From: Pseudomonadota bacterium
GTDB taxonomy: Bacteria > Pseudomonadota > Gammaproteobacteria > Burkholderiales > Burkholderiaceae_C
Length of the DNA stretch: 37,800 nt
Reading direction: 5' to 3'
NCBI GenBank assembly: GCA_030538085.1
Contig: JAUNUR010000027.1
Coordinates: 1-37,800, forward strand
Position 1 is the stretch's first letter; each line of letters opens with the position of its first letter. This document shows, piece after piece, positions 37,304 through 37,750 of the stretch. The position numbers and the translations under genes were made by a program. The notes under the pieces are model-generated. The model was given only the letters and a program-made list of their open reading frames with translations. It did no database searches and was not told the DNA's origin.

Positions 37304-37356
37304 CTATTGAGATTTTCAAAAATCACGACAGCGCGAGCCATCAGAAAGAAATCTCC

Positions 37357-37395: not shown

Positions 37396-37750
37396 TGAAT
37401 TACGAAATTTTCAATAGAAACGGCAGTTGGATGCGCCCGAGCGTGCCGTGATGGGCGTGCCAGGCAAGGGCAAGTGCCGCGGCTCCAAAGCTGCCTGCGC
37501 AGCTTTGGACGGCACGAGCGGCATCGGGCTCTGACCGATGCGCGCCCTGCAAGGGTGAGGACGCGGCAGGCTCGTGCCTGCAAGGACGAGCAACGCCGCT
37601 TGGGCAGCGAGCCAGCGCGGTGCGATCGGGTGCATAGCGCGCTCACCCACCAGGTGAACGTGATCGAAGCCGTGAAAGTCAGCGCTCATGCCAGTTGCCC
37701 AAGGATGGCGAGCGGTCAACTGCCGTTTCTATTGAAAATTTCGTAATTCA
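37396..37750. mobile_element. 355-bp noncoding element with perfect 34-bp terminal inverted repeats
   Basis: The ends 37396-37429 and 37717-37750 are perfect 34-bp inverted repeats beginning TGAATTACGAAATTTTC; four more outer bases match after one mismatch. The ends are AT-rich but the interior is GC-rich and full of stems. They are CCAAAGCTGC/GCAGCTTTGG (37485-37508), closed outside by GTGCC/GGCAC; GCATCGG/CCGATGC (37521-37541); GCAGGC/GCCTGC (37566-37581); and a long-range CTTGGGCA/TGCCCAAG (37599-37606 with 37696-37703). Open frames of 90-102 codons on both strands look like no known protein and use the end repeats as their termini. It could be a MITE, or a mobile element carrying a structured RNA. 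No transposase is present and no clear target duplication was found. Confidence 0.75.

Follow-up and report, generated by a model that had tools for sequence, protein, structure and literature searches.

A bacterial MITE family whose interior is preserved as a single-strand fold of one polarity and whose core module recurs between other ends

Introduction

The closest described relatives of the element reported here are the small non-autonomous DNA transposons (MITEs) of bacteria. MITEs with hairpin transcripts are already known, and one of the named families, Chunjie, has a length of 178–235 bp, according to a paper that for MITEs also cites the Polaromonas JS666 genome (PMC10969869). MITEs are usually seen as passive leftovers defined by their ends; in the family described below the conserved part is the centre. 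Folded parts are a feature of other mobile elements too: the omega RNA of IS200/IS605, the bridge RNA of IS110 and HEARO are structured RNAs with a transposase or nuclease partner. Plant retrozymes (PMC4918200) are non-autonomous mobile elements with a conserved folded RNA.

Here we analysed a window of 37,800 nucleotides, by which we mean the whole stretch of DNA examined (contig JAUNUR010000027.1, assembly GCA_030538085.1), in which a structured repeat lies 50 bp from the end of the contig (C67) of a 3.5-Mb draft genome; by inference, the genus of the host genome is Ottowia. Among the matches listed in our literature search, which covered few subscription journals, so that an earlier description is possible, no paper dealt with the element, with its folded module or with the sharing of the module among differently ended MITEs.

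Results

The Window Copy and Its Boundaries

The original prediction had described a perfect 34-bp inverted repeat around 287 bp, MITE-like and with neither a protein-like frame nor a recognisable transposase remnant. All of this was borne out: the repeat lies at 37396–37429 and 37717–37750, and the three overlapping ORFs of the element gave no Pfam match. A coding interior had also been considered, as copy lengths in the own genome mostly differ by multiples of 3 (311/308, 227/224), and was dropped on account of lengths of 309, 312, 322 and 225 among further copies and relatives and of the ORFs devoid of a Pfam match.

The boundaries, on the other hand, had to be redrawn. Most other copies align with the 355-bp query only from about position 20 to 336, and therefore the outer 19 bp or so of each side (37396..37414 and 37732..37750, features of no particular strand), which lengthen the inverted repeat to 34 bp, are flank, lying on the left outside the element in most other copies; two places, on contigs C74 and C38, have more of this flank in common with the window copy. 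The terminal repeat of the family is 17 bp, not the 34 bp first taken as the element boundary, and the AT-rich ends noted at the same time are mostly flank. From the match extents and from the ends and lengths compared across copies, the element is a long-form MITE copy of 321 bp at 37413..37733, on the + strand, which is the strand that folds. Fifteen of the 17 bp are intact in this copy: the left terminal inverted repeat TAGAAACGGCAGTTG (37415..37429, +), in which the usual CCTAG has lost its CC, and the right one, CAACTGCCGTTTCTA (37717..37731, +), both assigned from the letters and the comparison of copies. An inverted-repeat scan reports a 43-nt pair at 95%. The window copy has no target duplication, its flanking 5-mers being TTTTC and GAAAA.

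The flank contains a further repeat, CTATTGANANTTTC, with 3 occurrences in the window where 0.29 would be expected. As CTATTGANANTTTC...CACGACAGC, this separate repeat is seen beside or under several MITE insertions, namely in the window (37304–37317, 37404–37417 and 37729–37742) and at loci L006, L009, L012 and L013; at L012 the MITE seems to lie inside it. In phage sequences the window element was unmatched, as was one other module copy, and viral contigs held no exact match to one motif pattern.

A Dispersed Family with 17-bp Ends

Across the copies compared, the family ends are CCTAGAAACGGCAGTTG...CAACTGCCGTTTCTAGG, flanked by 5-bp NTNAN duplications such as TTCAA, GTCAC and TTTAT. The loci fetched from the own genome comprise 62 copies with both ends (65 listed rows minus 3 alternative end pairings in L023 and L051), 35 of which have identical 5-bp flanks; copies truncated at a contig end or showing a single terminus do not enter the copy, flank and singleton counts. 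By length, 34 copies are of 234 bp, 12 of 237, 7 of 321 (the window type), 4 of 318, 2 of 322 and 3 of other sizes.

To look beyond these loci we used R1, a covariance model of the core without its ends. In the own genome, where 150 of 4877 candidates were scored, it gave at least 100 matches with E no higher than 0.001; multiple copies with precise shared boundaries, for which the original prediction had proposed a search, are therefore present. With the own genome counted each time, R1 matched 24 of 29 genomes across the genus, 47 of 150 across the order and, at a stricter E of 1e-9, 6 of 299 across the phylum. Both CCT-type ends were recognised in 17 of the 25 order loci (L203–L227), the left end only in L216, and neither end in the remaining 7. 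The elements are thus shorter than 500 bp, have no coding capacity, share precise terminal repeats, are dispersed in many copies and, as a family, carry target duplications: the stretch 37413–37733 belongs to a family of non-autonomous DNA transposons (MITEs) whose ends are 17 bp long and whose duplications are of the NTNAN form.

At least six contigs of the own genome (C7, C14, C33, C61, C81, C93) start no more than about 100 bp away from a MITE end. Because several contigs start in this way, the family probably breaks the assembly, and the true copy number may be higher. Second MITE ends were observed near a complete copy at L023:1695-1713 and L051:3019-3388, the second right end of L023 lying 19 bp further on. 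In 11 of 51 copies the duplication contains a stop codon that closes a frame otherwise free of stops over 300 nt or more; every TNA is a stop on one strand, hence we make no claim from this count.

Candidate Mobilisers

ISs with related ends were found in relatives. The original prediction had suggested looking for a full-length IS with the 34-bp ends; none of the full-length ISs read in relatives has that repeat. On a Polaromonas plasmid, an IS of 1630 bp with a 5-bp duplication, TTAAA, agrees with the MITE end at 16 of 17 positions on the right and 12 of 17 on the left, so that this best candidate fits well at one end only, and a MITE copy starts 358 bp past its end. A relative of 1648 bp in an Ottowia genome (G014), flanked by ATCAT and TTCAT, has ends 3 and 4 positions off the MITE end. 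In a further genome (G097) ends were recognisable in 5 of the 6 IS loci read (CCTATTTCCGGCAGTTG / CCTAAATCCGGCAGTTA), with identical 5-bp flanks in 3 of those 5. Overall, 17 loci encoding relatives of the Polaromonas transposase were read, and ends were located in 5, all in G097; in the 11 loci outside the six of G097, where the relatives are more distant or partial, no ends were found.

The partner transposases pass the Pfam DDE_Tnp_1_4 threshold (59.3 and 86.5 bits against a gathering score of 34.7). With 141.1, 155.5 and 151.8 bits they lie below the NCBIfam IS1380 cut-off of 180, and for this reason appear to form a divergent IS1380-like group. ISEcp1-like elements of the IS1380 family have the end CCTAG. 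Those classical IS1380 elements of the genus whose ends could be located were rejected as the partner, these ends being different (CTAGCCCGGATATTTCACC). Searches for relatives of the Polaromonas-type transposase in the own genome, and of the transposase in viral contigs, found none. When R1 was run on 25 sources in search of an autonomous IS carrying the module, 4 matches were obtained: 2 lie in the MITE copy next to the Polaromonas IS, and the other 2 are weak (E 0.089 and 0.75) and lie in the flanks of L237 and L233; the folded core was not found inside the ISs searched. From the related ends and the 5-bp duplications we infer, with fair confidence, that IS1380-like DDE transposases move the MITE family in trans.

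The Interior Is a Covarying Fold

The 321-nt element folds at −174.2 kcal/mol against an average of −142.35 for 100 shuffles (z = −6.11), and the strong stems expected from the sequence, including a long-range pairing, are present, among them a perfect 11-bp hairpin (37484–37494/37499–37509) and a long-range helix near 37430–37460/37600–37640. The 5' strand of this long covarying helix (P2/P3), placed in the window by comparison, occupies 37430..37464 (+); it corresponds to helix 2 of a 27-sequence alignment, where 27 of 31 pairs are changed on both sides. Its 3' strand, 37600..37640 (+), positioned by fold and alignment, is partly disrupted in the subfamily of the window copy. Between the two, 37465..37548 (+; borders approximate, from copy comparison and fold) is an extra long-form domain with hairpins that is missing from the 234–237-bp form, and a hairpin TCACC...GGTGA follows at 37643..37657 (+; helix 6, paired in 93.8% of cells).

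Aligned, 27 copies of 228–237 bp from many genera have one common structure of 62 pairs, 41 of them doubly changed, with the architecture of a long helix, an internal loop AAG/AACGC(N) and a variable hairpin cap. Cells are paired in 96.1% of cases, compared with 79.1% in shuffles and 32–39% when the alignment is slid, and 248 cells are doubly changed against 70.3 in shuffles, so that relatives retain the pairing; the interior thus covaries as a fold and is more than a by-product of the inverted repeat.

In Rfam, no match at the gathering score was found inside the elements tested, in keeping with the original prediction; the one match in the set is a SAM riboswitch elsewhere in L284. At a relaxed E-value, three stretches gave matches all far below gathering, mostly to microRNA families (the best 36.1 bits against 184). 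On these Rfam scores a known RNA was rejected as the identity of the element.

The Module Recurs between Other Ends

Six of the seven weaker R1 loci without CCT-type ends (L221–L227, the exception being L227) have the same internal loop atop a long hairpin, between other ends. A second model, R2, was built from 34 sequences of the loop region alone (alignment A6 leaves out L269, L224, L284, L214 and L215). The R2 alignment has 178 doubly changed cells compared with 54.7 in shuffles; the number of doubly changed pairs, 17 against 15.0, is not beyond the shuffles, the other measures are. In the window, R2 places the shared folded module with its internal-loop motif at 37538..37609 (+; 51.8 bits), and the conserved 3' loop strand AACGCC, read from the letters and the consensus of module copies, is at 37591..37596 (+). 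Twenty-nine hand-anchored copies, found by the motif and therefore alike in their loops partly by construction, show AAG on the 5' side of the loop in 28 cases and AACGC at the start of the 3' side in 25. The 12 outer pairs form in 18 to 29 of these copies through a wide variety of base-pair combinations, with the exception of the first pair, which is invariably C-G.

With E allowed up to 0.01 and 150 of 4350 candidates scored, R2 found at least 119 places in the own genome; across the class, at 1e-5, it matched 78 of 369 sampled genomes, own included, belonging to 60 of 272 sampled genera. As to specificity, 32 sources yielded 9 matches, each of them in the window or in one of five motif-bearing loci, and 26 IS loci that served as control yielded none.

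Three further module families, each of 161–165 bp, were distinguished in the own genome. F2 (6 copies, ends GTGTGCTGTCCCGCAAATA) has TA-like junctions, identical in only 1 of 6; F3 (8 copies, ends GTACGCCGACACGG) has TA on both sides in 7 of 8; F4 (22 copies, ends GAGGCTGTCCTCAAA) has identical TNA-type triplets in 14 of 22. By the duplications characteristic of each type, F2 and F3 would be putative IS630-type MITEs (TA) and F4 a putative IS5-type MITE (TNA). Yet other ends surround the module in other genomes, and on an Azotobacter plasmid an element with two motifs adjoins an annotated IS630 transposase. The module is not tied to one kind of ends; ends and cores are mixed and matched.

Larger elements with two facing modules about 110 bp apart were also seen, at L361:1190-1440 (Azotobacter chroococcum plasmid NZ_CP066311.1), L362:1188-1376 (a Halomonas plasmid) and L309:903-1092; those of L361 and L362 start GGGCCTGTT.

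Other elements have the ends of the window family. A second family of 162–164 bp with the same CCTAGAAACGGCAGTTG ends was observed at L092, L109, L111, L118, L131, L135, L144, L162, L182 and L194, on contigs labelled Chlamydiae, Nitrospirae, Nitrospinota, Magnetococcales and Gammaproteobacteria. It has a covarying fold of its own, with 30 of 51 pairs doubly changed and conserved loops around CTCTTGA, and a polarity on the opposite strand (G-U 56, A-C 11). Elements of 163 bp sharing these ends had been candidates for carrying the module and were rejected, having the common terminal repeat and no R2 match: R2 found nothing in 21 loci with 162–164-bp elements of this kind, nor in L157, a long relative of the window family, and only 2 matches (L180, L158) in 36 chosen loci that share the terminal repeat. 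In Methyloversatilis, L164, L121 and L158 hold 170-bp elements with the same ends and a further interior type, CTTCGAC..GCTCAGGACAGGC.

One Strand Is Conserved

The long interior helix of the 27 copies contains 133 G-U pairs and 5 of the mirror-image type, A-C. The helix structure was predicted on the + strand with G-U allowed, which favours G-U counts; the reverse complement folds at −46 compared with −98 kcal/mol and, on its own predicted structure, has 76 G-U and 49 A-C. When pairs were set by position alone, in 24 copies outside the window family, the counts were 30 G-U and 2 A-C. Of the two strands, the forward one gave the better fold in every one of the 40 window-family rows that were folded (out of 65), in 5 of 6 of F2, 8 of 8 of F3 and 22 of 22 of F4. 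G-U counts of forward strand and complement are 619 and 349 in the window family and 113 and 58 in F4, and nearly equal in F2 (22 and 23) and F3 (35 and 31).

Mutation of double-stranded DNA should yield G-U and A-C about equally, and thus selection acts on one strand as a single strand: what is conserved in the interior of the window family is a single-strand fold with one polarity. This separates RNA or single-stranded DNA from a double-stranded or template-switching origin and does not separate the first two from each other. As G-T wobble is tolerated in single-stranded DNA too, polarity is insufficient as proof of RNA. The proposal that the interior functions as RNA or structured DNA accordingly stands as far as the conserved folded single strand is concerned, seen in covariation and polarity; the roles considered below are hypotheses.

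Selection on Resident Copies

The 49 short copies of the own genome hold 95 singleton changes, 16 of them over 43 columns conserved between genera and 34 over 77 variable columns. New G-T and A-C singletons are 8 and 7. Helix columns have 29 singletons over 89 columns, compared with 56 over 110 in the unpaired interior, and pairing survives in 14 of 26 helix singletons, where 9.2 would be expected (P 0.043). One subfamily, 12 of the 49 short copies, has amplified even though several of its helix pairs are broken. Constraint on resident copies is weak, although it may not be nil, and conservation probably arises mainly from which element lineages spread.

Discussion

Taking these observations together, we somewhat favour the view that this is a non-autonomous MITE with a fold of one polarity, mobilised by IS1380-like transposases, whose module acts as RNA. 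The family would be moved in trans by IS1380-like DDE transposases, and the element would be transcribed, usually by read-through from outside; the transcript would fold into a capped hairpin and act as RNA in cis. Less certainly, the internal loop might be recognised by some host factor, a recognition that would keep insertions tolerable or aid the spread of the element, whatever the transposase, and selection would act more on the lineages that spread than on individual resident copies. Orientation toward neighbouring ORFs has no clear preference (21 and 18), an observation that speaks against a simple use of the module in read-through. An RNA in cis is the most likely role suggested for the module, and single-stranded DNA is its main rival.

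On that rival account, which we hold to be possible though distinctly less probable and which retains about half the weight, the module would work as single-stranded DNA of one strand, for example of the lagging-strand template or of the transferred strand, and its hairpin would, with the same degree of likelihood, aid excision, assist the capture of new ends or protect a long inverted repeat from hairpin nucleases. Polarity and covariation fit it equally well; the module was observed in inverted-repeat elements with transposon-like ends, copies have no orientation preference toward genes and, in the families of about 162 bp, the arms reach the tips. However, the DDE transposases of these families are not known to depend on a folded single strand.

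It is improbable that the module is instead a small RNA, useful to the host or addictive, with its own promoter and captured by transposons as cargo. Fold and loops are indeed conserved, 60 of 272 sampled genera of the class have matches, and many redundant copies would mask selection on each of them, but on reading the 27-copy alignment no promoter-like conserved stretch is evident, and in the loci inspected by eye the motif lies within a longer inverted repeat.

Slightly weaker still, and very improbable, is an ordinary MITE with a functionless interior, whose arms covary merely through template-switch correction of the hairpin: the arms of imperfect palindromes are known to be corrected one from the other by template switching, and the G-U counts of the two strands are nearly equal in F2 and F3, but such switching treats the strands alike, against G-U to A-C counts of 133 to 5 and 30 to 2, and the loop strands stay fixed as the arms diverge, the same loops recurring under other ends. 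That MITE transcripts commonly form stable stem-loops (PMC10969869) also fits an ordinary MITE; on balance, a template-switching origin is disfavoured.

Returning to the favoured reading of a one-polarity fold acting as RNA, a further and tentative proposal, to which we give clearly less than even credence, is that the folded module, be it RNA or single-stranded DNA, is itself the selected unit and acquires the ends of successive transposon families. If so, unrelated transposases would have carried one core into a fifth of the genomes sampled from the class. Ends and target-site type vary, and the folded core with its fixed internal loop persists; this offers a specific and testable account of the success of some non-autonomous elements. 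The module is also a structural motif for RNA or single-stranded DNA biology that has no Rfam match, and R2 can serve as its search model.

As regards known systems, retrozymes are retrotransposons with hammerhead ribozymes, and nothing in the MITE described here suggests reverse transcription or a known ribozyme. With IS200/IS605, IS110 and HEARO it shares the nature of a mobile element with a conserved folded part; unlike them, the elements here are without a gathering-score Rfam match and have ends and duplications of the DDE type, and no linked nuclease gene was noticed. The ISs of the IS1380 family resemble it, through the putative partners, in DDE_Tnp_1_4, 5-bp duplications and ends starting CCTA with an inner GCAGTT, and differ in that the partner transposases score 141 to 155 bits against 180 and that the ISs searched are without the folded module. 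Closest are the bacterial MITEs (Correia/NEMIS, ERIC, QMITE, Chunjie), which, as described in PMC10969869, are likewise short and non-coding, with terminal inverted repeats, target duplications, many copies and hairpin transcripts; Chunjie, compared by description only, is also of similar length. Unlike bacterial MITEs in general, the family reported here combines conservation of the interior across genera, covariation on both sides of its helices and a strand polarity with a loop that is common to elements of other end types.
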